A stretch of 34,919 nucleotides of DNA from an uncultured Zetaproteobacteria bacterium (GCA_947311495.1 CAMZLG010000138.1:1-34919); one strand, 5' to 3'. Numbered from the stretch's first letter, positions 3,759 to 29,252 are shown. Numbers and translations: made by a program. The notes: generated from the sequence alone by a model not told the origin.

Positions 3759-5605
3759 TGCAACAGACGTTTGTCAGGTGTAAATTCAGGAACCAATTGG
3801 TTTAATGAGGTAATTAAGGTCTGTATATCCCTGGACTCACAAGCTTGTCGAATCGTAGCTAAATGTTGTTGCACATCATTCCAGTCCACACTCCTAGCGT
3901 GAGATAACATAATTTTAGGGTGCTGCGTTCCTCGCAATGCTTCCGCTTCATGAAATAACTCTTCAAACAGTTTTTCACCTGGTCTGAGCCCTGTAAATTG
4001 AATTTCAATATCATCATAAGGTGTTAACCCTGCCAAACAAATCATCTGCTCAGCCATATCAATAATTTTAATAGGTTCACCCATATCTAACACAAATATT
4101 TCACCACCATCACCCATGGTTGCCGCCTGTAAAATAAGCGACACAGCTTCAGGAATCGTCATGAAATAACGTGTAATATCCTTGTGTGTGACTGTAACGG
4201 GGCCACCTTCTTCAATCTGTTTTTTGAATAATGGAACAACACTACCAGCAGACCCTAGAACATTACCAAACCGCGTTGTTATAAAAGCTGTATCACATCG
4301 ACCATTCAAATTCTGGCAATAAATTTCAGCCATACGTTTGGTTGCACCCATGACATTGGTTGGGTTAACCGCCTTGTCTGTGGAAACCTGTATAAAATAT
4401 TCACAATGATGTTTCGCCGCAAAGTCGGCAATTTGACTTGTACCCAAGACATTGGTTTTGATGCCTTCCGCAGGATTAGCCTCCACCAATGGTACATGTT
4501 TATATGCAGCTGCATTAAATACAACTTGTGGCTTGCAGTGGCTATACACCCAGCCCATACGTTCAGCATCACGAATATCACCCAATATCGCTTCACTAAC
4601 TTGATAGTTACTTAGCTTTTGTAGCTCATTATCAACTTGATAAAGGTTGAACTCAGCATGATCCAATAAAATCAGTTTAGCTGGTTCAAAGGTCATCAAT
4701 TGGCGACATAATTCTGAACCGATTGACCCACCTGCACCTGTGACCATCACACATTTACCACGTATAAAATCACACACTTTTTTATTATCCAATGCAATCG
4801 GTGCTCTACCCAGTAAATCTTCAAGCTGAATACTACGCAAATCACCAATCGCTGATGTATGCGCTTCTATCTCTTGCATGCTGGGTACGGTTCGACAGAT
4901 AATATGCGCATCTGCACATTGCTTGACCAGTGACTGGAGAATTTCAGAACTCGCCGATGGCATGGCAATCAAAACTTCATGAATTTCTAGGTCTTGAACC
5001 ACATCTGTCAAAGATGATAAGTCGCCTAAAACCCTGACGCCATGAATATCCATGCCTTTTTTCTTACGGTTATCGTCTAAAAACCCAACGGGTAGATAAA
5101 CATCATTTTGCAAGACATCACGAACCAACAACTCACCCGCTTTACCCGCACCAAGAATAAGTGCCCGCTTGGCATTTGTAGATGACAATTTTAAATGCCT
5201 TTCTTTAAACCAGCGGTACAAAAGCCTCGCGCCAGCAAGCCCACCAATAAGAATTAAAGGATAAAGTACCAGCGTAGAACGTGGGATTCCATCCAAACGG
5301 ATCCAAATAAATAAGATAAAATATGTGACCAGTGCGCCAACAACAATAGCACGCATAATACGTTGCAAATCAGGCAAGGATGCAAAACGCCAAATACCTC
5401 GGTATAAACCAAAAAACCAGTAGGTGGACATTTGAACAGGTAGCGATATGTAAAAGAGTTTCCAAGCACCTAGAACATGATGAGGAGGGATTTGACCAAA
5501 ATCAAAACGAAAGGCAAAAGATAAATAAACAGCTAGACCAACCCATATCATGTCATGAATAAAGGCAAACCACCTACTTTTCCAAATGAACAATAAATCC
5601 TTCAA
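3755..5605 (-). CDS. Membrane-anchored nucleoside-diphosphate sugar epimerase/4,6-dehydratase (CapD/WbpM/PglF/FlaA1 family)
   Basis: 616 aa; N-terminal TM helices, CoA-binding-like domain (LILGAGKAGELLVRDVL), SDR domain VMVTGAGGSIGSELCRQL, ending with GLRPGEKLFEELFHEAE. ATGA overlap with priA. Confidence 0.92.
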   Translation of the reverse strand: MKDLLFIWKSRWFAFIHDMIWVGLAVYLSFAFRFDFGQIPPHHVLGAWKLFYISLPVQMSTYWFFGLYRGIWRFASLPDLQRIMRAIVVGALVTYFILFIWIRLDGIPRSTLVLYPLILIGGLAGARLLYRWFKERHLKLSSTNAKRALILGAGKAGELLVRDVLQNDVYLPVGFLDDNRKKKGMDIHGVRVLGDLSSLTDVVQDLEIHEVLIAMPSASSEILQSLVKQCADAHIICRTVPSMQEIEAHTSAIGDLRSIQLEDLLGRAPIALDNKKVCDFIRGKCVMVTGAGGSIGSELCRQLMTFEPAKLILLDHAEFNLYQVDNELQKLSNYQVSEAILGDIRDAERMGWVYSHCKPQVVFNAAAYKHVPLVEANPAEGIKTNVLGTSQIADFAAKHHCEYFIQVSTDKAVNPTNVMGATKRMAEIYCQNLNGRCDTAFITTRFGNVLGSAGSVVPLFKKQIEEGGPVTVTHKDITRYFMTIPEAVSLILQAATMGDGGEIFVLDMGEPIKIIDMAEQMICLAGLTPYDDIEIQFTGLRPGEKLFEELFHEAEALRGTQHPKIMLSHARSVDWNDVQQHLATIRQACESRDIQTLITSLNQLVPEFTPDKRLLQ

Positions 5606-5648
5606 AATAAACCTCTATTCCACATAGCCTAAGAATAACAACACAAAT

Positions 5649-5676
5649 AAAAAAGGCGAACCCTAAGGTCCGCCTT
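5649..5676 (-). terminator. Intrinsic terminator downstream of fba
   Basis: Minus-strand hairpin AAGGCGGACC-TTAG-GGTTCGCCTT (one G-U pair) followed by a T tract (TTTTATTTG). Confidence 0.85.
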
Positions 5677-5701
5677 CTTAAAATTTAAGAATGGTTAAAC
5701 C

Positions 5702-6739
5702 TTATTTGTAATAACCAATCATTGTTTCTAAAGATTTAACATTGATTTTATCTGCTTGACCCGCAGAACCAAATGCTTCAAAGCGCGCTTTACAGATGTC
5801 TTTCATGGCATCTTTTGCAGCTTTGTAGAATTTACGTGGGTCAAAGTTTGATGGATTCTCTTTCAAGTGACGACGAATTGCACCCGTTGATGCCATACGC
5901 AAATCAGTATCAATATTTACTTTACGCACACCAGACTTGATACCTTTCACGATTTCTTCGACAGGCACACCATAAGTTTCACCCATTTCGCCACCATATT
6001 CATTGATAATCGCCAACCAGTCTTGTGGCACAGATGAAGAACCATGCATCACCAAGTGCGTATTTGGAAGTGCTGCATGAATTTCTTCAATGCGATCAAT
6101 TCTTAGCACTTCACCTGTTGGTGGTTTGGTAAATTTGTATGCGCCATGTGAGGTACCAATTGCAATCGCTAAAGCATCAACATTTGTTGCTTCAACAAAA
6201 TCAACGGCTTCATCAACACCCGTCAACAACATGTCCAAATCAAGCTTGCCTTCAGCGCCATGCCCATCTTCTTCACCCATCATACCTGTTTCCAAAGAAC
6301 CCAAGCAGCCAAGCTCGCCTTCAACAGAAACACCACCAGCATGTGCCATATCAACCACTGTTTTGGTAACACCAACATTATATTCAAAAGAACCTGGTGT
6401 TTTACAATCGGCTTCCAAAGAACCATCCATCATCACTGATGAAAAACCCGATTGAATTGAACGCAAACAAACTGAAGGCTCAGAGCCATGATCTTGATGC
6501 ATAACCACAGGAATATGTGGGTACTGTTCAATTGCAGCATCAATCAAATGACGCAAAAATGGTTCGCCTGCATAGCCACGTGCGCCTGCAGAACCCTGCA
6601 TAATCACAGGTGAGTTGACTTCATTTGCAGCTTCCATGATTGCATGGACTTGCTCCATATTATTTACATTGAATGCAGGCATGCCGTAACTGTTTTCAGC
6701 TGCATGATCCAATAGTTGACGTAATGTAATTAGTGCCAT
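5702..6739 (-). CDS. fba: Class II fructose-bisphosphate aldolase (Calvin-cycle-type subclass)
   Basis: 345 aa; [88 protein letters not shown]. Confidence 0.96.
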
Positions 6740-6775
6740 TTTCTTACTCCTTTCCTTAGTTTAAAATATTAACTG

Positions 6776-8224
6776 CTATTTAACGCTAATGATTTTCATT
6801 GCATTGGTACCGCCTGATTCACCCATCGGTGTACCAAAAGTCATAATAATAAGTTCGCCTTTGTTCGCAATGTCTTCAACAAGCATTTTAGCTTGAATAT
6901 CCAAAGTTGCTTGCGGTGCATCAGTTGGACCATAATCAATATCCATACGCAGAGGCGTTACATTACGAAATAATGTTACCCTACCCAAAGTGCTTTCTTC
7001 AGAGGTCACTGCATAAATAGGCACATCACCCAAATGGCGCGACATATAAAGCGCAGTATTACCACTTCTTGTAAATGATGCAATTGCCTTAATTGGCATT
7101 TCCCTTGCCACTTCCATAGCCTGACGAGCTATACACTCATCCACTGAATGTGGCGGATAACGCGGGTTACGCGTTTGCGCAGAAGGCATCACACGTTGTT
7201 TCTCCGTTTCAATGCATGTGCGGTGCATAGCAAGCACTGCTTCAACGGGATAATCACCCGCAGCCGATTCGCCTGATAACATGACAGCATCTGTACCATC
7301 CAAGACAGCATTGGCGCAATCATTCACTTCCGCACGCGTTGGGATCGGATTCTCACACATGGATTCCATCATTTGCGTCGCTACAATCACTGGGCAATTA
7401 TATTTCGGTGCCATACGCAACATTTTCTTCTGCACTGGCGGCACTGCTGCATCACCAATTTCAACACCCAAATCACCACGCGCCACCATAACCGCATCCG
7501 ATGCTTCCATAATCGCTTTTAGATTTTCATCAAGCACAGCTTCCGCACGTTCAACTTTAGCAACCATGCCTGCATTAGAGCCTTCAGCTTCAACCAATGA
7601 GCGGGCATAGTCCATATCTTTTCCATCGCGAGGAAAAGAAATTGCAATATAATCAACGCCAATGGCACATGCTGTTTTAATATCTTCCTTATCTTTATCT
7701 GTAAGCGCTGCTGCGGATAAACCACCACCTGCGCGGTTGATTCCTTTGTTGTTCGACAACACGCCACCAACAACCACAGTACAATGAATTTCTTCACCGA
7801 TAACTTCATCAACATCCATAACCAACAGGCCATCATTGAGAAGAATACGAGCGCCAGACTCCACGTCACCAACCAACTCTTTATAAGTTAGACCAACACG
7901 TTCATCTGTACCTGAATCCAAATCCATCGCTCCATCAAGAATAAACTTATGCCCAACTTTAAGCATCGTTTTACCATTGATGAATTTACCACAACGTATC
8001 TTAGGACCTTGCATATCAGCAAGAATACCTACAACAACACCAAGTTTCTTCGCTGCAGCACGTACATTATCTGCACGCAACTGATGGTCTTCAGGGGTAC
8101 CATGAGAGAAGTTCAGACGAACGACATTCACACCAGCGGCAATCATTTTTTCAAGCATTTCAGGTGATTCTGAAGCGGGGCCAATCGTTGCAACAATTTT
8201 GGTTCTACGAATAAGTTCTGTCAT
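6776..8224 (-). CDS. pyk: Pyruvate kinase
   Basis: 482 aa; RRTKIVATIGPAS, VVRLNFSHGTPEDH, MVARGDLGVEIG, PVIVATQMMESM, DAVMLSGESAAGDYP. Confidence 0.97.
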   Translation of the reverse strand: MTELIRRTKIVATIGPASESPEMLEKMIAAGVNVVRLNFSHGTPEDHQLRADNVRAAAKKLGVVVGILADMQGPKIRCGKFINGKTMLKVGHKFILDGAMDLDSGTDERVGLTYKELVGDVESGARILLNDGLLVMDVDEVIGEEIHCTVVVGGVLSNNKGINRAGGGLSAAALTDKDKEDIKTACAIGVDYIAISFPRDGKDMDYARSLVEAEGSNAGMVAKVERAEAVLDENLKAIMEASDAVMVARGDLGVEIGDAAVPPVQKKMLRMAPKYNCPVIVATQMMESMCENPIPTRAEVNDCANAVLDGTDAVMLSGESAAGDYPVEAVLAMHRTCIETEKQRVMPSAQTRNPRYPPHSVDECIARQAMEVAREMPIKAIASFTRSGNTALYMSRHLGDVPIYAVTSEESTLGRVTLFRNVTPLRMDIDYGPTDAPQATLDIQAKMLVEDIANKGELIIMTFGTPMGESGGTNAMKIISVK

Positions 8225-9402
8225 TATTTAGCTCGTGCCTCAAGCATGGCAACGGCAGGTAACTGTTTGCCTTCTAAGAATTCCAAAAATGCTCCGCCAC
8301 CTGTTGAGATATAAGATACTTTATCTGAGATATTATACTTATCAACCGCAGCCAATGTATCGCCACCACCTGCAATGGAGAATGCCGAAGATTCGGCAAT
8401 AGCCATAGCAATCGCTTTGGTTCCTTCACCAAACTGGTCAAATTCAAATACGCCAACAGGACCGTTCCATACAACAGTACCTGCGTTTTTAATGATTTCT
8501 GCAAGTTCTGCAGCAGAATCAGGACCAATATCAAAAATCATGTCATCATCAAGTGTTTCATCCACACCTTTTAATGTTGCTTCTGCAGTAGGCGAAAATT
8601 CTTTAGCACACACAACATCTGTTGGTACAGGAATCGAGCCACCATTCGCAATCGCATCAGCAGTTAATTTTTTACACGTATCAACCAAGTCTGCTTCATA
8701 CAAAGACTTACCTACAGGTTTCCCTGCTGCTGCAATAAATGTATTGGCGATACCACCACCCACAACCAATTGATCAACAATCGTAGCAAGTGATTCAAGC
8801 ACAGTTAGTTTCGTTGAAACTTTAGAGCCACCAACAATCGCAACCATTGGGCGTGCAGGGTTATCCAATGCTTTACCTAAAGCTTCAAGCTCACCTGCAA
8901 GCAATGGGCCTGCGCATGCTGTTGGTGCAAATTGACCTGCGCCATGTGTTGAAGCTTGCGCACGATGCGCTGTACCAAAAGCATCCATCACATAAACATC
9001 ACACAATGCTGCGTACTGCTTAGACAAAGATTTATCATTTTTCTTTTCACCAGCATTAAAGCGTACGTTTTCAAGCAAAACAACTTCACCATCAGCAACG
9101 TCAACATCAGAACCTACATAATCTTTAACCAAGCGTACGTCTTGACCCAAAAGTGTGGACATATGTGCTGCAACTGGCGCAAGGGAAAACTCATCTGCAG
9201 GCTCACCTTCAGTTGGACGACCCAAATGCGACATAACCATTACCTTTGCACCTGCTTTAATGCAGTGCTCTAAGGTTGGCAATGATGCACGAATGCGCTT
9301 ATCTGATGATACTTTACCTTCTGCGATAGGTACGTTTAAATCCTGACGAATCAATACGCGTTTTCCCGCTAAATCCAGGTCAGTCATTTTAATTACAGAC
9401 AT
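8224..9402 (-). CDS. pgk: Phosphoglycerate kinase
   Basis: 392 aa; [82 protein letters not shown]. Confidence 0.98.
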
Positions 9403-9430
9403 TATTTACTCCTCTTCCTATTTCGATAAA

Positions 9431-9474
9431 ACGTTTGTTTTTATATGCTTGTTAAAACAAACAAAAACAAACGT
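9431..9474. repeat. 12-bp perfect inverted repeat in the gap-pgk intergenic region
   Basis: ACGTTTGTTTTT (9431-9442) and AAAAACAAACGT (9463-9474), 20-nt spacer; the right arm overlaps the T tract and stem base of the adjacent terminator hairpin. Confidence 0.8.
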
Positions 9475-9495
9475 GGGGTCTCTGTGAAACCCCAC
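9473..9495 (-). terminator. Hairpin followed by T-rich tract between gap and pgk (putative intrinsic terminator or attenuator)
   Basis: Minus strand GTGGGGT-TTCACAGAG-ACCCCAC followed by GTTTGTTTTTGTTTGTTTT; 7-bp GC-rich stem about 13 nt after the gap stop codon. Confidence 0.7.
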
Positions 9496-9508
9496 ATTGA
9501 TCAATCAA

Positions 9509-12525
<3,017 letters not shown>

Positions 12526-20957: not shown

Positions 20958-22499
20958 ATGCAAAAACGAATTATACTCACGCTAATCTTATTGTTTACAA
21001 CCTTATCAGGGTGCGCCACCAACCCGGTAACAGGCAAAAGTGAATTAAGTTTGGTTAGTGAACAAAAGGAGCTCGCCATTGGAGAGCAGCAGTATTTGCC
21101 CGCCCGCCAATCCCAAGGTGGTGACTACATCGTTGACCAAAAGCTCACCGCATACATCAATGGTGTTGGGCAAAAGCTTGCTGCTGTTAGTGATAGAAAG
21201 CTGCCTTATAAATTTAAAGTGCTTAACAACTCTGTGCCCAATGCTTGGGCATTACCCGGCGGGAAAATTGCCATCAACCGTGGTTTATTGATGTATTTAC
21301 ATAATGAAGCCGAACTCGCCGCAGTGCTTGGGCATGAAATTGTGCATGCCGCTGCCAAACATGCTGTGCGCCAAATGTCACGCGGAATGTTGCTGCAAAC
21401 TGCAGTCGTTGCCACAACAGTGACAACTCAAGGCGAAAGCTACGGTGGTTTAGCTCAACTTGGTACAGGGCTTGGCGCACAACTGCTTAGCACCAAGTAT
21501 GGGCGTGATGCAGAGCGCGAATCTGACCACTATGGCATGATTTATATGTCGCGCGCAGGTTATGACCCGCAAGGTGCAGTGGAGCTGCAACGCACGTTTG
21601 TGAAGTTATCTGAGGGGAAAAACCAAAGTGGTTTAAGTGCCTTGTTTGCAAGCCATCCCGCGTCTCAGGAGCGTGTGGACAACAATATCGCCATGTTACA
21701 AAACTTACCCCAAGGCGGCTACAAAGGTGAACAAGCCTTTAATCAAGCTATGGCTCATTTAAAAGCCACAGCACCTGCCTACAAAGCCTATGATGATGGG
21801 CGCAAAGCACTTGCCAAAGGTGAAGATGCCAAAGCCAAGCAACTTGCTCTTCAAGCCATTAAACTCGAACCCAAAGAAGCACTGTTTTATACGTTAACGG
21901 GCGATATTGCTGCAAAAAACAAACATTATACGCAAGCACAGCAGCAATACACACAATCCATTCAACTTAACCCCAATTTCTTTTATGCCTACTTGCAACG
22001 CGGACAAGTGGGTTACCAGCTCAAACAAGACACAACAGCCAAACAAGATTTGGAAAAAAGCTTAACCCTTCTACCCACAGGTAATGCATACTTTGTGCTT
22101 GGTAACTTGGCTGAACGCCAAGGTGATATTGAACAAGCGAAAACATATTATGCCAAAGTTGCCAGCAACAAGGGCAACGTGGGTATTGCTGCATACAAAG
22201 CTTTATTGAATTTAGACTTTACGCAAAACCCAAGCAAATATATCAAGCTTCGTTTGGGTAAAACCCAGCAAGGAAGTATTGCGGCTGAAATCAGCAACCC
22301 AACACCTCAAAATGTTGGCGCTATCCAGCTTATGGTTCAGTTTACCAACAGCAAAGGGCAAGTCCAACAAGTATCCCACCAATTCACGGCAACTGTTGCG
22401 GCAGGTAAAAAGGCACTGATGAATTTAAATATCAATCTCAGTGACCCCCAACTACAATCGCTTCAAGGCAAAATCACAGCAGCAAAACTTATGCCTTAA
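20958..22499 (+). CDS. M48 family Zn-metallopeptidase lipoprotein with C-terminal TPR repeats (BepA/YfgC-like)
   Basis: ORF track starts at 20838, but the in-frame ATG at 20958 gives the lipoprotein signal MQKRIILTLILLFTTLSGC. Motif HEIVHAAAKH (HExxH), ESDHYGMIYMSRAGYDPQGAVEL, then TPR repeats. Confidence 0.9.
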   Translation: MQKRIILTLILLFTTLSGCATNPVTGKSELSLVSEQKELAIGEQQYLPARQSQGGDYIVDQKLTAYINGVGQKLAAVSDRKLPYKFKVLNNSVPNAWALPGGKIAINRGLLMYLHNEAELAAVLGHEIVHAAAKHAVRQMSRGMLLQTAVVATTVTTQGESYGGLAQLGTGLGAQLLSTKYGRDAERESDHYGMIYMSRAGYDPQGAVELQRTFVKLSEGKNQSGLSALFASHPASQERVDNNIAMLQNLPQGGYKGEQAFNQAMAHLKATAPAYKAYDDGRKALAKGEDAKAKQLALQAIKLEPKEALFYTLTGDIAAKNKHYTQAQQQYTQSIQLNPNFFYAYLQRGQVGYQLKQDTTAKQDLEKSLTLLPTGNAYFVLGNLAERQGDIEQAKTYYAKVASNKGNVGIAAYKALLNLDFTQNPSKYIKLRLGKTQQGSIAAEISNPTPQNVGAIQLMVQFTNSKGQVQQVSHQFTATVAAGKKALMNLNINLSDPQLQSLQGKITAAKLMP

Positions 22500-22954
22500 G
22501 CAAGCTGCGTAAAGAAAGCGACATAAAAACGTACATCTCCATCTGCTGCTACACAATGCAGCATTTCAGGTGGGATATTTGCCGTTTCACCTTCGTGAAC
22601 ACGAATGCTGGCTTGACCTTCTGGCGTGTATAAAAGTGCGCCTTGTAGCACATGAATCTTGCCCCATGTACCAAGTTTGGTGGTGTGATTTTTTAATAAA
22701 CCTTTGGGAATGGTCTCTTGATTAAACTCAGGTGTGCGTTTGTATTCTTTCAAATTCTCAGGGAACTCCAAAACATCACAACGTACACAATCAAGAACTT
22801 CACCAAGTTTGCTCGCTCTGCCTTCTGTCGTTGCTGACCACGGGCGATTAAAAAAGGGCGGCTCATGGCGCACATGTTGACCATGAAAACAATCCAAATC
22901 CGCCACCCAGTCTTGTTTCTCATCCTGATGATAACCAATAATTTTTCGTTTCAT
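22496..22954 (-). CDS. DUF3565-like plus DUF1971-like (TehB-associated cupin) two-domain protein
   Basis: 152 aa; N-terminal MKRKIIGYHQDEKQDWVADLDCFHGQHVRHEPPFFNRPW...LDCVRCD (Cys/His-rich), then EYKRTPEFNQETIPKGLLKNHTTKLGTWGKIHVLQGALLYTPEG...IPPEMLHCVAADGDVRFYVAFF. Assigned from memory of these families. Confidence 0.7.
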   Translation of the reverse strand: MKRKIIGYHQDEKQDWVADLDCFHGQHVRHEPPFFNRPWSATTEGRASKLGEVLDCVRCDVLEFPENLKEYKRTPEFNQETIPKGLLKNHTTKLGTWGKIHVLQGALLYTPEGQASIRVHEGETANIPPEMLHCVAADGDVRFYVAFFTQLA

Positions 22955-22974
22955 GGCAACATGAGCCCCTTTAT

Positions 22975-23844
22975 CTATTTTAAGATTTCAATGATTCGGC
23001 TGCGATATGAAGTGTGGCACGCCATACATGCACTTAACATTTGTGACTGTTTGGCTATTAAAACTTTCATATCTTTAGCTTGAGCAGCTTTCTCAATATC
23101 CAATGCCAAATGATGAACTTTGTCATCGGCTTTTTTAAAGTCTTTCATCTCCGTGCGCAAGCTTGCCATCAGTTTCATTTTTGTGCCCATAGATGGTGTT
23201 TCATGGAATGCAATACCATGCGCTGCTTCTGCTGCTGCATCAAAATCTTCACGTAAAATTGCATCATCAACGGCTGCATAGTCCAAACCCAACTGCTGCA
23301 TAATCGCTTTAAGCGAACCTGCCTCTGCAGTTATGCCTTTATTGATCTTATGCATAAGCTGATGCGGTTTAGCAGATGAAGTTGTACACATCATGTCGTA
23401 TATCTTTTGATGCTTTTGATACAACTTCATTTTACCTTCTTGCTTAAACTTCTCTGCTGCATGTTTCCAATGGTTACATGGTGGTTGAAAGGTTTCATCA
23501 TGAATATACGCCGCAATTTTACGCACATCATCTTCTTCAAAACCCATGTTTGGCATCACGCCCAACACTTTCACAGGCTCTTTGAGTATGGCTTTATCTT
23601 CAGTAGGGTTAGTCGCAAAAGCTGTAACTTTATCAACAAATCCAGCCTTATCTTTAGTCGCCATCTTATATTTCATCTGCACACCAAACATGGGTGGTGC
23701 TTGCGCAGGTTCTAACTCTGCATTGTGGCAAATTAAACAGTTCTCTTGAAAAAGTTTTTTACCTTGCATAAATGTTTTATCGCTCGCCGCAGCTTGCGTT
23801 GTCATGGCAAGGCTTAAACCCACCAATAAAATTACCTTTTTCAT
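22975..23844 (-). CDS. Secreted two-heme cytochrome c: N-terminal class I-like domain plus C-terminal cytochrome c'-like domain
   Basis: ORF extends to 23943, but ATG at 23844 is preceded by CAGGAGATCAT and gives signal peptide MKKVILLVGLSLAMTTQAAASD. Heme motifs CLICH and CMACH; candidate Met ligand in VMPNMGF. Confidence 0.85.
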   Translation of the reverse strand: MKKVILLVGLSLAMTTQAAASDKTFMQGKKLFQENCLICHNAELEPAQAPPMFGVQMKYKMATKDKAGFVDKVTAFATNPTEDKAILKEPVKVLGVMPNMGFEEDDVRKIAAYIHDETFQPPCNHWKHAAEKFKQEGKMKLYQKHQKIYDMMCTTSSAKPHQLMHKINKGITAEAGSLKAIMQQLGLDYAAVDDAILREDFDAAAEAAHGIAFHETPSMGTKMKLMASLRTEMKDFKKADDKVHHLALDIEKAAQAKDMKVLIAKQSQMLSACMACHTSYRSRIIEILK

Positions 23845-23857
23845 ATGATCTCCTGTT

Positions 23858-25147
23858 TTAGAATGTGTATTCAACTTCTGCATACACCCTGTCATTATCA
23901 TTAAATTGTCCAAAGAAGTCTGCTGCATCCCCCGAAAACACATCCAAACCTAAACGACCCAGTGTGTTATCTGAAAATTCATACGACACTTTGGGGCGCA
24001 ACATAGAGCTGCCATCTGAATAGTTCATTAAAATAATCATTTCAGGTTTTAACTTATCATTCATGTAATCTGTGGACACCATCAAGGTGACAAAACCAGA
24101 GTTTTCTTTTTCAAGCATGGTGTTATCCCAGTTTTGAATATGACGCACAAACACTTGCGGGCTAATGCGCCAGTTGTTCGCATTATAATCCAAGCCCAAC
24201 GCTGCATTCCAAGTGGTCACATCCGTTGGCGCAACACTGGTTGTGATAATCTCATTGGTATTGATGGCAACTTCAGCACGCAAAACCCACGCCCCAAACG
24301 CATTGGATGCTGAGCCACCCACCGTGTTCATTCGCTGATATACGGGTGTTAACGTAAGCTGCCCAGAGCTGATGTTTTTTTGAATCGCAGGTGTATCTTT
24401 CCAACCATTAAACCAATTGAGTGATACATCCCACCCATCCAAATTAGCTCGCCATGCCAAGCCGTATTCAGCATCACTCGCTCCAAAGCTTGGTTTATTG
24501 CCTTCGGCTACATTTAAGCTGAACCCAGCAGGTGGTGCTGCCATTTGGTACGCCCAACGCGAACCTCGGGGTGCAAACTCAGCAGGTTTGGCATCAGGAA
24601 TAAACACAAATTCAAACTCATGTTCATTATCACCTAAATATGCGTAATAGTTTAAGCGAACCGCAGCAACACCCATACGAGAATCCAAAAAATCATCCAA
24701 CAAAAATTCGCGCATATCCAAAGGATTTACAATATCCAACAAACGCAAACCATCCGTTTTACCCCAAACGATTTGCTGTTGCCCTACCCTTAAATCATAA
24801 TCATCCGCCGCATATAACAAATAAGCTTCTTTGACAGCCGAATATGTGCGGTATTCGTTTTGAATACTGGGCGTATAATCCGTCGTATTGGCAGCTTCAA
24901 TATCTGTGGCTGCATCATACCAAGCCAAAAAACGACCCCTAAACTCAAGTCTGTCCGTTAATATCGCTTCAGGTTTAATGTCAATTCGATTTTGTACTTT
25001 ATCCAAGCGTTGTTCACCTGATATGAAGTATGCTGTCTCATTTTTTACAGCGCCGTGCAATGTCAATTCCACAGCCGAGGCTGCTGCACTATTGAGCAAC
25101 AGCCCTGCAACAGCCAACATCATCACATGCTTCATACTTTGCCTCAT
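23858..25147 (-). CDS. DUF1302-like outer-membrane beta-barrel protein
   Basis: 429 aa; signal peptide MMLAVAGLLLNSAAASAVE; LRVGQQQIVWGKTDGLRLLDIVNPLDMREFLLDDFLDSRMG (typical of DUF1302 proteins); C-terminal Phe (YAEVEYTF). Confidence 0.8.
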   Translation of the reverse strand: MRQSMKHVMMLAVAGLLLNSAAASAVELTLHGAVKNETAYFISGEQRLDKVQNRIDIKPEAILTDRLEFRGRFLAWYDAATDIEAANTTDYTPSIQNEYRTYSAVKEAYLLYAADDYDLRVGQQQIVWGKTDGLRLLDIVNPLDMREFLLDDFLDSRMGVAAVRLNYYAYLGDNEHEFEFVFIPDAKPAEFAPRGSRWAYQMAAPPAGFSLNVAEGNKPSFGASDAEYGLAWRANLDGWDVSLNWFNGWKDTPAIQKNISSGQLTLTPVYQRMNTVGGSASNAFGAWVLRAEVAINTNEIITTSVAPTDVTTWNAALGLDYNANNWRISPQVFVRHIQNWDNTMLEKENSGFVTLMVSTDYMNDKLKPEMIILMNYSDGSSMLRPKVSYEFSDNTLGRLGLDVFSGDAADFFGQFNDNDRVYAEVEYTF

Positions 25148-27447
25148 ACTTTAATTTTATCCTTGCCCAGACCCAATAATACAGGGAACAAATAAACCGT
25201 GGCTACGTAACAAATCATCATGGTTGCTGCAATCAACGCACCCAACTTCATTTGCGGATACAACGCAGCAGACAACAACACCAAGAACCCACCTACAACG
25301 ACAATCGTGTTGAATAAAATCGCATGACCTACACTGCGATTGGTATTGATGACACTTTCTTCATAGCTATGGTTAGCAATGCTTTCCTCATGGTATCTGT
25401 GCAGGTAATGAATGGCGAAATCCACACCAATGCCCAATGCCATAGAGCCAGTGAGCGCTGTTGCCAAATCCAATGGAATACCAATATTACCCATGGTTCC
25501 ATAGTTGACTGTCACGGCAAGTGTTACTGGAATCATGGCAATCACTGCAATCAAAATACGCTTAAACATCACCAAACACAGCAAGAAAATAGCAAATATT
25601 GATAATGCCAATGATGTCACCTGCCCATCAATAATCATCTTAGCTAAGCTGTCCAATGTGTAACCTGTGCCCGCCCACTTCACGGTATAACCTTCTGATT
25701 TAGGGAACCAAGCTGCCGTTTTATCTTGTAAACGGCTCAAGATATTGGCAACTGCTTCCGTGCTATCACTTTTCATGTTAATCACCACATGCGCTTCGCG
25801 GTAGTCACTGGTCATAAACTTCTCAAAATCATCAGGTGCGCCTGAAAATGAATACAACAACAAATACTGCGCTGCCAAGTCGGATGAATTAGGCACACGA
25901 TAGTAATCTGGATTATCTTCATTGAGCGCCTTGTTCATAATCATCAAAAACTCGGCAATGGATGAGGTGTCACCCACCAGCGAGTCTTTCTCAATTTCAG
26001 TTTGTAAGTCTACAATCTTTTGCAAAAACGATGGTTCAAGCAAACCATTTTCTTTGCCTGTATCAATCATAATATCTAGGCTTGTTGTACCTGCAAAATG
26101 TTGATTCAACACAGTGTCTGCATGACGAATCGGGTCATCTGGCTTAAATTGCGCCACCATAGATGCATCCACCTTAATCAAGGTCGCACCATAGACAGAA
26201 ACAACAACCAGTATCGCAAAGAATGCCATGATTTGTTTAGGGTATTTCAGTATCGCTTGGCTAGACCAATCCACATAATCGGTGAATAATGGTTTTTTGT
26301 CGGCATGCCCATCTTTTTCAGGCAAGACCATCAATGCTGCAGGGAATAATGTCAGCGTGATAATCAAAGCGTAAGCAATACCCACCGTAGCAAAAATACC
26401 AAACTCTTGAATCGGTGGTAAATCAGAAGTTAACATGGACAAGAAACCCGCACCAGTAGTTACCGATGTCATCACCATAGGTTTCCACAATTCATGCATC
26501 ACTTCCACAATGCGTTCTTTGCGGTGCGCATATTCCGAGAAATGTGCCAACAATCGCTCTCGGCTTAAAAAGTGAACCGCATCAGCAATACCAATCGCCA
26601 TGATCAGAATGGGTAACATGGTGGTGATGGTATAAATATTATAACCCAATGCTGCCATGGTTCCCACTGTCCACACTTCCGCAATCAATACGGTAAGCAA
26701 GGGTAGCACTACACCTCTGGGTGAGCGAAACGAGACATACAACAATAAAATAAGTAATGCGATGATAATGGGTTGCATACGTGTCATTTCTTGCGGCATA
26801 TACACACCAAACACACCTTCAATCACAGGGCGACCCGAGATAAAGAACTCTTCATTGCCACCACGCGCTTCAAGTTCTTCAACTTTATTTTTTACCAAAT
26901 CATAAATATCAGCATAAGTTTCGCGTGCATTGGGTTGCGGACGCACCGCCAAAACCGTGCCCACCTCATCTTTAGACACAATCACATCTTCATAGATGCC
27001 AAATTCGTGCATGCGCTGTTTGATATGGTCGATTTCTTCTTGGGTTTGCGGCACACCATCCATAAATGCTTCCACATCAAGCCCCGAAGCCGAGCCGCGA
27101 ATATCTTTGATGGTGGCAAGCGATAATAAATCATTGAGTGATAAGGTGCGCAATAAGGGCTGCTCACCCAACCAGTCCGTCAATTCTTGCACCAAAGCAA
27201 GCGTATGTTGATTATACACACCCTCTTCTTTGTTAATCACACCAATAATCACCAAGTCAGAACTGCCAAACTTCTCATCCAACACTTGCTTATTGATATA
27301 CGCATCGCTGTGTTTGGGTAACATGGCATCCGTATCGGTTTCAATATGAATGGAGCGCATTTGATTGCCTGCCATCACCGTGATAAGCAACAGCATCACC
27401 AGCACAGTTTTCGGGTGCTCCAGTATCCAACTAAATAATTTATGCAT
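25144..27447 (-). CDS. RND superfamily permease (MMPL/HpnN-like exporter)
   Basis: 767 aa; TM1 VLVMLLLITVMAGNQMRSIHIETDTDAMLPKHSDAYI; two TM blocks (IIIALLILLLYVSFRSPRGVVLPLLTVL; LALSIFAIFLLCLVMFKRILIAVIAMIPV); GIGVDFAIHYLHRY; MMPL-type rather than AcrB-type length. Confidence 0.9.
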   Translation of the reverse strand: MHKLFSWILEHPKTVLVMLLLITVMAGNQMRSIHIETDTDAMLPKHSDAYINKQVLDEKFGSSDLVIIGVINKEEGVYNQHTLALVQELTDWLGEQPLLRTLSLNDLLSLATIKDIRGSASGLDVEAFMDGVPQTQEEIDHIKQRMHEFGIYEDVIVSKDEVGTVLAVRPQPNARETYADIYDLVKNKVEELEARGGNEEFFISGRPVIEGVFGVYMPQEMTRMQPIIIALLILLLYVSFRSPRGVVLPLLTVLIAEVWTVGTMAALGYNIYTITTMLPILIMAIGIADAVHFLSRERLLAHFSEYAHRKERIVEVMHELWKPMVMTSVTTGAGFLSMLTSDLPPIQEFGIFATVGIAYALIITLTLFPAALMVLPEKDGHADKKPLFTDYVDWSSQAILKYPKQIMAFFAILVVVSVYGATLIKVDASMVAQFKPDDPIRHADTVLNQHFAGTTSLDIMIDTGKENGLLEPSFLQKIVDLQTEIEKDSLVGDTSSIAEFLMIMNKALNEDNPDYYRVPNSSDLAAQYLLLYSFSGAPDDFEKFMTSDYREAHVVINMKSDSTEAVANILSRLQDKTAAWFPKSEGYTVKWAGTGYTLDSLAKMIIDGQVTSLALSIFAIFLLCLVMFKRILIAVIAMIPVTLAVTVNYGTMGNIGIPLDLATALTGSMALGIGVDFAIHYLHRYHEESIANHSYEESVINTNRSVGHAILFNTIVVVGGFLVLLSAALYPQMKLGALIAATMMICYVATVYLFPVLLGLGKDKIKV

Positions 27448-27458
27448 TATTATTTCCT

Positions 27459-28265
27459 TTATTTACCACGATAGCCGCGTTTAATCATACGTTCTGTAAA
27501 CATCCTGTCTGATAAACCTGTGTTGTATTCATGGTCAGAAAATACCAGTTCGGTTTTATGATTGGTTTGCACATTGCTCATCACCCCACCCATGGCTGTC
27601 CAAATCCCATCAATTTGTTTGATACCATTGGATACCAAGTGTTTGAGTTCGCGACCTTTTTTGTCCCAAAAGTCCACTTTAACATACATATCAATGTCTT
27701 TGCGCACATGGTAAACCACTTTAGAATAACCCAAGTCTTTGATAAGCTGCTTGGTTTTAGGCACAGCTTGCACCACCCAAACATCAAAACCTTTAATATT
27801 ATCTGAGCCTAAAAGCGTCCAATTATAATCGGGTAGCTCGGGTGTTTGTTTGATGTCTTCAAATGTAAAATCCGTACCCATGAAATAATCACCACGATCC
27901 GATGAAGAAATGCGACGCACTTTTTTCAACGCAGGCAAATATAACCATTGGTCATCATCCTTACTTTCATCGGCATAATCCCAAGTGAGCATGGCTGTGT
28001 CCCGCACATTGGCAGGTGATAAAAAGTAGGAAACTGATTTACTGTCCAACCCATAATCTTTGCTGAACGAAATCATTTCACGCTCACGCACATTTCCCCG
28101 TTTATCAATCAAACGTTGCTTCATTTTTTGTTTTAAATCTTGCCCGTCATCCCGTGCTTCCACGCGTTTCATCACTTCCAAACCCGTGGTTGGCTCCGCA
28201 GCTATCACTGGTGCTGAAACAAGTGTGGTTAAACCAACTGCAATCCATAAAAGTTTAATGTTCAT
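27459..28265 (-). CDS. LolA-like outer membrane lipoprotein-sorting protein (periplasmic)
   Basis: Start at 28265 preceded by AGGAGGTTCAC; MNIKLLWIAVGLTTLVSAPVIAAEPTTGLEVMKRVEARDDGQDLKQKM...SYFLSPANVRDTAMLTWDYADESKDDDQWLYLPALKKVRRISSSDRGDYFMGTDFTFED, characteristic of this family. Confidence 0.85.
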   Translation of the reverse strand: MNIKLLWIAVGLTTLVSAPVIAAEPTTGLEVMKRVEARDDGQDLKQKMKQRLIDKRGNVREREMISFSKDYGLDSKSVSYFLSPANVRDTAMLTWDYADESKDDDQWLYLPALKKVRRISSSDRGDYFMGTDFTFEDIKQTPELPDYNWTLLGSDNIKGFDVWVVQAVPKTKQLIKDLGYSKVVYHVRKDIDMYVKVDFWDKKGRELKHLVSNGIKQIDGIWTAMGGVMSNVQTNHKTELVFSDHEYNTGLSDRMFTERMIKRGYRGK

Positions 28266-28677
28266 GTGAACCTCCTTTGGTAATACTTTTGTATGCGAGA
28301 AATGATAAAACAAGCCACACCACTGAACGCAAAGTCATAGCACCAATCGTGCGTGTCTCATAAGCAATATCACTAAGCTGAATGGAAAGTAATAGTGTTG
28401 CGAACACCATGATTGTGGACAGTGCTACCATGATAGCGAGCCAAGCAGCCCAAGGTTTCTTCAACCAAAAGCCCATACCTGCTGCCACATAAATAAAGCC
28501 CGATATAAAATTAAACCACAACACTGCAGGCACATAATCCCCTGCCGCAATCCGCGCCTCTTCGCTCCAAAAAAGCACATCACCGCCAGATTTAATGGTC
28601 AATAATCCAAATGCCACCGCAACCGTGCCGATGACCATGCGCACAATTCCGCATCGTTTTTTATGTTGATCATCCAT
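28255..28677 (-). CDS. Small integral membrane protein of unknown function (about 4 TM)
   Basis: 140 aa; hydrophobic segments MVIGTVAVAFGLLTI, VLWFNFISGFIYVAAGMGFW, AAWLAIMVALSTIMVFATLLL, LRSVVWLVLSFLAY. Overlaps the start of the LolA-like gene by 11 nt. Confidence 0.7.
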   Translation of the reverse strand: MDDQHKKRCGIVRMVIGTVAVAFGLLTIKSGGDVLFWSEEARIAAGDYVPAVLWFNFISGFIYVAAGMGFWLKKPWAAWLAIMVALSTIMVFATLLLSIQLSDIAYETRTIGAMTLRSVVWLVLSFLAYKSITKGGSHEH

Positions 28678-28705
28678 CGTTGTAATCTCCTTTAAATCTT
28701 ACTTT

Positions 28706-29167
28706 TTATTTATCATCTCTTAGCGCCATCAAATCAAACATCAGTTGACGTAGTACCCGCACTGTTGCGTCCCTATCTTCTGGCGAAATATTTGCGACCA
28801 ACTCTTTCTGCATTCCACTTGCAATCGGAAATGCTTGATCAAGCAGCTGCTTACCCTGTGCCGTAAGCATAATATCAAACCTGCGTCTATCTTGTTCATT
28901 GGCTTTGCGCTCTATCAGCCCCTTTTTTACCAAACCGTCTAAGCGGCGCGTCACCGTTGTTTTATCTCGCATCATCAACTCAACAATTTTGGCTTGGCTC
29001 ATCGACCCGCCACTGTATAATCGAATCAAAATCGCAAAGTCTTGTGCCACAATTGCCAAACCCGCTACTGCAAACCGTTTCTCAACTTCCTCGGTCATCA
29101 AATACGATACCCGATTGACATGAAACCCCAACGCTTGCTCCAACTTAAATGTGTTTAAATCATCCAT
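28706..29167 (-). CDS. MarR family transcriptional regulator
   Basis: Start at 29167 with AGGAGAGAGATT upstream; GFHVNRVSYLMTEEVEKRFAVAGLAIVAQDFAILIRLYSGGSMSQAKIVELMMRDKTTVTRRLDGLVKKGLIERKANEQDRRRFDIMLTAQGKQLLD: wHTH with DRR wing. Confidence 0.93.
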   Translation of the reverse strand: MDDLNTFKLEQALGFHVNRVSYLMTEEVEKRFAVAGLAIVAQDFAILIRLYSGGSMSQAKIVELMMRDKTTVTRRLDGLVKKGLIERKANEQDRRRFDIMLTAQGKQLLDQAFPIASGMQKELVANISPEDRDATVRVLRQLMFDLMALRDDK

Positions 29168-29195
29168 AATCTCTCTCCTTGCGGCGAACTGTAGT

Positions 29196-29216
29196 TTGTA
29201 TAGTTGCAATATACAA
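29196..29216. promoter_or_regulatory. Inverted repeat upstream of marR, candidate MarR operator
   Basis: Perfect 7-bp arms TTGTATA (29196-29202) and TATACAA (29210-29216), 7-bp spacer, 29 bp upstream of the chosen marR start; overlapping AGTTG/CAACT arms add symmetry. Confidence 0.6.
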
Positions 29217-29252
29217 CTGTTTTATTTGGCAACTTATTCCGCAGTGAAAATA

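Follow-up and report, generated by a model that had tools for sequence, protein, structure and literature searches.

A predicted MarR-controlled transport cluster of an uncultured zetaproteobacterium and its class II cytochrome, relatives of which adjoin unrelated export pumps

Gene layout and predicted control of the cluster

A cluster of seven close-packed minus-strand genes occupies positions 22496-29167 of a 34,919-nucleotide (nt) contig from an uncultured Zetaproteobacteria bacterium (CAMZLG010000138.1 of assembly GCA_947311495.1; hereafter, the window, with all positions counted from its first base). Judging by its named relatives, the source organism belongs in or near Ghiorsea. The cluster encodes a MarR-family regulator, a small inner-membrane protein, a LolA-like periplasmic protein, a permease of the resistance-nodulation-division (RND) superfamily, a DUF1302 outer-membrane protein, a cytochrome, and a DUF3565/DUF1971 protein (Table 1). 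Pfam assignments and coordinates agree with the genes, order, and families proposed in the initial annotation. From marR to the last gene, the intergenic distances are 28, -11, 11, -4 (an ATGA overlap), 13, and 20 nt, and a terminator scan detected no site between the seven genes.

The predicted promoter upstream of marR consists of a -35 box (TTGTAT, 29211-29216) and a -10 element (TACAGT, 29188-29193) separated by a 17-nt spacer. A palindromic candidate operator overlaps this promoter, consistent with MarR acting as an autorepressor. The palindrome was conserved in 23 marR upstream regions; its first half coincides with the -35 box, and in most of these regions it is spaced 17 nt from the -10 element (TAnnGT-like). 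A degenerate operator pattern, allowed at most one mismatch, matched the source genome once, at the marR promoter. Genomes of some relatives contained a second match, and G011 contained none, though a weaker form of the operator stands at its marR. The weight-matrix sites for the operator were chosen from these same marR upstream regions. The short gaps and overlaps, the conserved operator over the -35 box, and the lack of a terminator inside the cluster support, but do not prove, the earlier proposal that the seven genes form one MarR-controlled transcript, which would start at the marR promoter. Recurrence of the gene order in many genomes, together with the conserved predicted MarR-type operator/promoter upstream, confirms that the cluster is more than a chance arrangement. 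As a separate observation, at another locus (L254 in G009, 5346-6317) a marR gene with a perfect operator precedes a class II cytochrome of a different, membrane-anchored kind, and no pump of the cluster's type is present.

Table 1. Features of the cluster and of its predicted control region, in window coordinates
Feature	Coordinates	Strand	Evidence
Predicted promoter and MarR operator	29188..29218	-	palindrome AGTTGTATATTGCAACTA at 29201-29218, over the -35 box
MarR-family regulator; probable local autorepressor	28706..29167	-	PF01047 7e-16
Small inner-membrane protein, 3-4 helices	28255..28677	-	hydropathy; conserved core KSGG..VLF...RxAAGxYV..LWFNF
LolA-like periplasmic carrier, signal peptide	27459..28265	-	PF17131 5e-60; DUF1329 3.5e-16
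HAE3/MMPL-type RND permease	25144..27447	-	MMPL 4e-41; Patched SSD 4e-16; TIGR00921 1e-78
DUF1302 outer-membrane beta-barrel	23858..25147	-	PF06980 1e-15
Periplasmic dihaem cytochrome, class I + class II	22975..23844	-	PF00034 (Cytochrom_C) 9e-7; PF01322 (Cytochrom_C_2) 2e-6
DUF3565 + DUF1971 (YeaR/TehB-N-like cupin), last gene	22496..22954	-	PF12088 9e-28; PF09313 3e-19

Predicted trans-envelope path and conservation of the cassette

The nearest NCBIfam model of the permease was TIGR00921 (HAE3), with an E-value of 1e-78 and a score of 265 bits that falls below the model's cut-off of 352. Two aspartates located in the usual proton-relay motifs of RND proteins, D289 (GIADxVH) and D676 (GIGxDFAIHYL), were invariant across eight divergent homologues, and the best solved relatives of the permease profile were HpnN (6wu0), Dispatched, and MmpL3. 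Solved homologues of the LolA-like protein were 9tp6 (5e-50), 4z48, and 3bk5. A PDB sequence search with the DUF1302 protein returned no credible relatives; its structural model (predicted local distance difference test score, pLDDT, 84) is a porin-like barrel, with a fold resembling porins and AlgE. Residues 129-148 of this model (window positions 23858-25135) are highly conserved and modelled with low confidence, and are perhaps a mobile plug or a partner-binding loop. The family and structure matches and the invariant D289/D676 pair uphold the initial proposal of an inner-membrane pump, a periplasmic LolA fold, and an outer-membrane barrel that together form a predicted path across the envelope.

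Such a core is an already known kind of system. It is similar to AmeABCD of Castellaniella defragrans, a proposed tetrapartite exporter for monoterpene efflux whose deletion shows that it aids monoterpene tolerance (PMC6394551), in that an HAE3 RND permease, a DUF1302 outer-membrane protein, and a LolA-superfamily (DUF1329) periplasmic protein are encoded in one cassette. The cluster differs in its gene order, in MarR control, and in the added cytochrome and DUF3565/DUF1971 genes, and its LolA-like protein matches PF17131 first and DUF1329 second. Since no AmeC-type (COG4447) domain was found among the seven proteins, the cluster may be called Ame-like in its working and is not classed as Ame. 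In the Pseudomonas putida set of PP_0765/PP_0766 with PP_2018/PP_2019, the DUF1302 and DUF1329 proteins are predicted to contact each other and an RND protein (PMC10866462); there, unlike in our cluster, the genes lie in two loci and no cytochrome is reported. HpnN, the hopanoid transporter to which the permease profile is closest among solved structures, functions with neither a periplasmic nor an outer-membrane partner encoded alongside it (PMC6394551).

The LolA/RND/DUF1302 core was conserved across Zetaproteobacteria. Among 399 Pseudomonadota genomes, this RND type was confined to Zetaproteobacteria and G041, the sole representative of its class in the survey; in G041, DUF1302 is followed by a cytochrome gene of that genome's own. 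Close cassettes were defined as those in which the RND protein is at least 64% identical and sequence extends beyond DUF1302 (n = 23). The cytochrome directly follows DUF1302 in 17 of them (L051-L058, L062-L066, L068-L070, and L073), and marR precedes every close cassette that has upstream sequence. Loci from different collections partly come from the same genomes, and these counts therefore do not represent independent events. The cytochrome linkage recurs in Mariprofundus-type genomes, while the DUF3565/DUF1971 gene is found downstream mainly within the genus. Of the linkage claimed for the last two genes, that of the cytochrome is recurrent and extends beyond the source genome to another class, which contradicts the adjacency in one genome only that the initial annotation had named as grounds for its refutation; the linkage of the DUF3565/DUF1971 gene is looser. 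A 77-amino-acid YgaP-like membrane protein is encoded between marR and the small membrane protein gene in Mariprofundus-type cassettes (L117, L118, and L119).

The small membrane protein gene was present in about half of the close cassettes. A Pfam scan of its product yielded no family above the cut-off, and a crude hydropathy scan revealed four overlapping hydrophobic segments, equivalent to 3-4 helices. A DoxX/MexG-like identity was considered and rejected, as a Pfam scan of seven homologues gave no DoxX match. At L051 (7055-8189), marR and the small membrane protein gene are broken across frames, as is gltB, which indicates sequencing error or decay. In the window, the cluster is flanked upstream by a divergent gltB, and its last gene shares 4 nt with a convergent gene for an M48 peptidase. 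Elsewhere, RND types of 51% or 32-35% identity (L076, L088, and L099) adjoin acyl-activating and redox enzymes, either an AMP-ligase, nitronate monooxygenase, and FMO or T_hemolysin, an AMP-ligase, Haem_oxygenas_2, and SDR; these sets suggest fatty-acyl-derived products.

The cytochrome and its relatives

The cytochrome gene product had been described as a two-heme protein. Two CxxCH motifs are indeed present, but the protein joins a class I cytochrome domain to a class II (cytochrome c'-type) domain, of which the latter is the conserved part. The class I domain contains CLICH at residue 36, with MPNMG as the likely source of the Met ligand, and the class II domain contains the C-terminal CMACH at residue 273. 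The class II domain was common to all cytochromes compared; class I is optional, and several genomes carry class II alone. Assignment to class II is based on the C-terminal CxxCH of a four-helix domain, with PF01322 over the cut-off, and sequence and fold matches to this same domain account for the likeness to cytochrome c' and to NaxLS, a nitric oxide (NO)-binding cytochrome that is among the best solved relatives. M182 is invariant and may be the sixth heme ligand of the class II domain. The cluster protein differs from cytochrome c' and NaxLS in that its class II domain occurs either fused to class I or singly, and in its genomic setting: in the part of the literature that was covered, no paper describing a link between such a cytochrome and efflux operons was found.

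In four genomes (G066, G073, G090, and G082), cytochromes 57-64% identical to that of the cluster are encoded after an AcrB-type RND gene. The full set of outer-membrane factor (OMF), membrane fusion protein (MFP), and RND genes is visible in G066, while the other three loci end at contig ends. These four cytochromes form one clade nested, with support of 97/92, among HAE3-linked cytochromes, which indicates a change of pump partner. At AcrB-type loci the gene for the 77-amino-acid YgaP-like protein is again present, there after the cytochrome gene, and DUF1971 genes adjoin these loci as well. Cytochrome relatives from outside the class adjoin MFP, MacB-like ATP-binding cassette (ABC) transporter, and TetR genes (G363 and G470; an NnrS-like gene near the G363 relative was noted by eye), TetR-MFP-RND genes (G142 and G208), or MFP-RND genes (G414, G477, G409, and G447, the G409 and G447 matches spanning only part of the cytochrome). 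In G559, a relative stands beside an efflux set of the major facilitator superfamily (MFS) type, as read by eye.

Efflux genes were located within 4 kb of 8/15 relatives from outside the class and of 1/40 ordinary class II cytochromes (p 4e-5); when the two loci from which the queries were taken were left out, the proportion was 6/13 (p 5e-4). These comparisons rest on a small sample, with 40 controls hand-picked from the match list. Exporter genes are thus more frequent next to the proposed efflux-associated subfamily than next to other class II cytochromes. That class II cytochromes at large are efflux-linked was ruled out by the 1/40 figure, the exception, G208, resembling the efflux-linked type.

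On plasmids, 179 records matched the cytochrome. The best-conserved form is a TetR-MFP-ABC permease-ATPase-cytochrome-OMF operon beside transposition genes, as exemplified by the six genes at 5200-10846 of NZ_CP143922.1 (L257), a type found on Enterobacteriaceae plasmids. The cytochrome of this operon shares 30% identity with the class II domain of the cluster and lies within an efflux operon, the pump there being a MacB-like ABC transporter with an OMF rather than RND/LolA/DUF1302. In plasmid records L259 and L260 the OMF is missing and the cytochrome has lost its heme-binding end, so the 179 records include broken copies.

Two genomes retain the cytochrome region after loss of the pump. G008 (L108, 7901-10457) carries a natural internal deletion that removed lolA and rnd and left marR, a 151-amino-acid remnant of the DUF1302 gene, the cytochrome, and the cupin gene. 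G076 keeps marR, the YgaP-like gene, and a partial cytochrome match containing a TAG; the pump is absent. The presence of the cytochrome with unrelated pumps and its retention after pump loss argue against direct coupling to the conduit. Of the initial view of this gene, its being the unusual part of the cluster stands, but its association is not specific to this pump. In a side observation, a distant class II cytochrome in G030 (L114, 331-4276) was found, by eye, together with SQR, ETHE1-like, TauE-like, and YgaP-like genes, a locus that looks like one for sulfide detoxification.

Interpretation and alternatives

Gene content and order, overlap of the predicted operator and promoter, and conservation can be read directly from the sequence. 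The explanation that we favour, with a probability of about one half, is that relief of MarR repression switches on the cluster as one operon, that its pump carries a hydrophobic compound through the envelope, and that a general efflux-accessory heme protein, which stands outside the conduit, accompanies this pump. A small hydrophobic ligand would release MarR, allowing transcription of the operon from the marR promoter. The proton-driven HAE3 permease would extract the compound from the inner membrane at its outer leaflet and load it onto the LolA-like protein, after which the DUF1302 barrel would let it through the outer membrane. AmeABCD and the P. putida set imply opposite directions; given MarR regulation, we consider uptake less likely than net export of a hydrophobic compound that is toxic or in surplus. 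The cytochrome is found with unrelated pumps and persists in G008, where the pump is gone; we therefore take it for an efflux-stress accessory rather than a conduit subunit. Its task would be to handle, in the periplasm, a by-product of this stress. Most likely it would bind, or pass electrons to, either a small reactive species, NO-like or a form of reactive sulfur, or the redox-active exported compound, and the class I domain, where fused, would tie it to the respiratory chain. NO-binding relatives, the NnrS-like neighbour, and sulfur-related neighbours of distant paralogues provide hints of such chemistry. The cytochrome would be the new part of the cluster, and its distribution is suggestive of a so far undescribed function as a helper of export pumps. 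We tentatively extend this proposal, as possible rather than probable, to the subfamily as a whole: a general Gram-negative efflux accessory, moved on mobile elements among RND (HAE1 and HAE3), MacB-like ABC, and perhaps MFS-type operons, with the heme protein as a working component of multidrug or toxicant efflux.

Several findings weigh against this explanation. No efflux gene was detected within 4 kb of 7/15 out-of-class relatives. Six close cassettes (L059, L061, L067, L071, L072, and L074) have no cytochrome after DUF1302, and cassettes with 50-52% RND identity, in which a TetR-like gene replaces marR (where checked), have none either; the pump therefore does not need the cytochrome. A search for the operator at AcrB-type pump loci found no copy, so these pumps and the cassette do not belong to one regulon, and a single MarR regulon spanning AcrB-type pumps was ruled out. 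The structural model of the cytochrome has a pLDDT of 67, its best fold match has an E-value of 0.16, and its matches to cytochrome c' are weak; the chemistry proposed above is drawn from family resemblance. Finally, P. putida requires its DUF1302/DUF1329/RND homologues to grow on Tween 20 (PMC10866462), which would be in keeping with uptake.

The cluster may instead be a nitrosative or reactive-sulfur stress operon, in which MarR would answer NO or sulfur species, the cytochrome c'-like protein would bind NO or oxidise sulfur, DUF1971 and YgaP-like proteins would join in, and the pump would clear damaged or modified lipids. The resemblance to NaxLS, the NnrS-like gene in G363, the SQR/ETHE1-like/TauE-like locus, and the YgaP-like and DUF1971 genes next to AcrB-type loci all point this way. 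Such contexts are few, however, the cassette contains no NO- or sulfur-specific regulator, and through the invariant M182 the heme could become six-coordinate and so exclude NO; we regard this explanation as unlikely. More doubtful still is redox-coupled export, in which pump and cytochrome would be one machine, the latter oxidising or reducing a quinone- or phenazine-like compound during its carriage by the LolA-like protein. Phenazines are exported by MexGHI-OpmD, and the operon arrangement, with the cytochrome right after the barrel gene in most close cassettes, fits this idea, as does the optional class I domain as a possible link to the respiratory chain. Yet the cytochrome family occurs with three other transporter types and is kept without a pump, and some close cassettes manage without it.

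Uptake, whereby the barrel, LolA-like protein, and permease would import a hydrophobic nutrient or recycle outer-membrane lipid while the cytochrome supports respiration, ranks lower again and appears improbable. The Tween 20 phenotype favours it, and lipid transport by HAE3 relatives is not limited to one direction; AmeABCD, however, acts as an exporter, control is by MarR or TetR, the cytochrome is mobile among efflux operons, and Ghiorsea are chemolithoautotrophs. That the cytochrome and cupin genes lie downstream through local synteny only is very improbable: the restriction of DUF3565/DUF1971 linkage mainly to the genus would fit, but recurrence in Mariprofundus-type genomes and in another class, the partner swap, the enrichment near efflux genes, and the plasmid operons contradict it.

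To our knowledge, export pumps are described as proton- or ATP-driven protein conduits, and a heme subunit is not part of the usual picture. A cytochrome that recurs next to unrelated pumps, persists in two genomes where the pump has been lost, and is carried on transposon-borne efflux operons would suggest that a redox side of efflux stress has been neglected. For Zetaproteobacteria, the cluster is a candidate operon for envelope protection, governed by a single defined switch, and relatives of its cytochrome, beside several unrelated export pumps, reach clinical plasmids.

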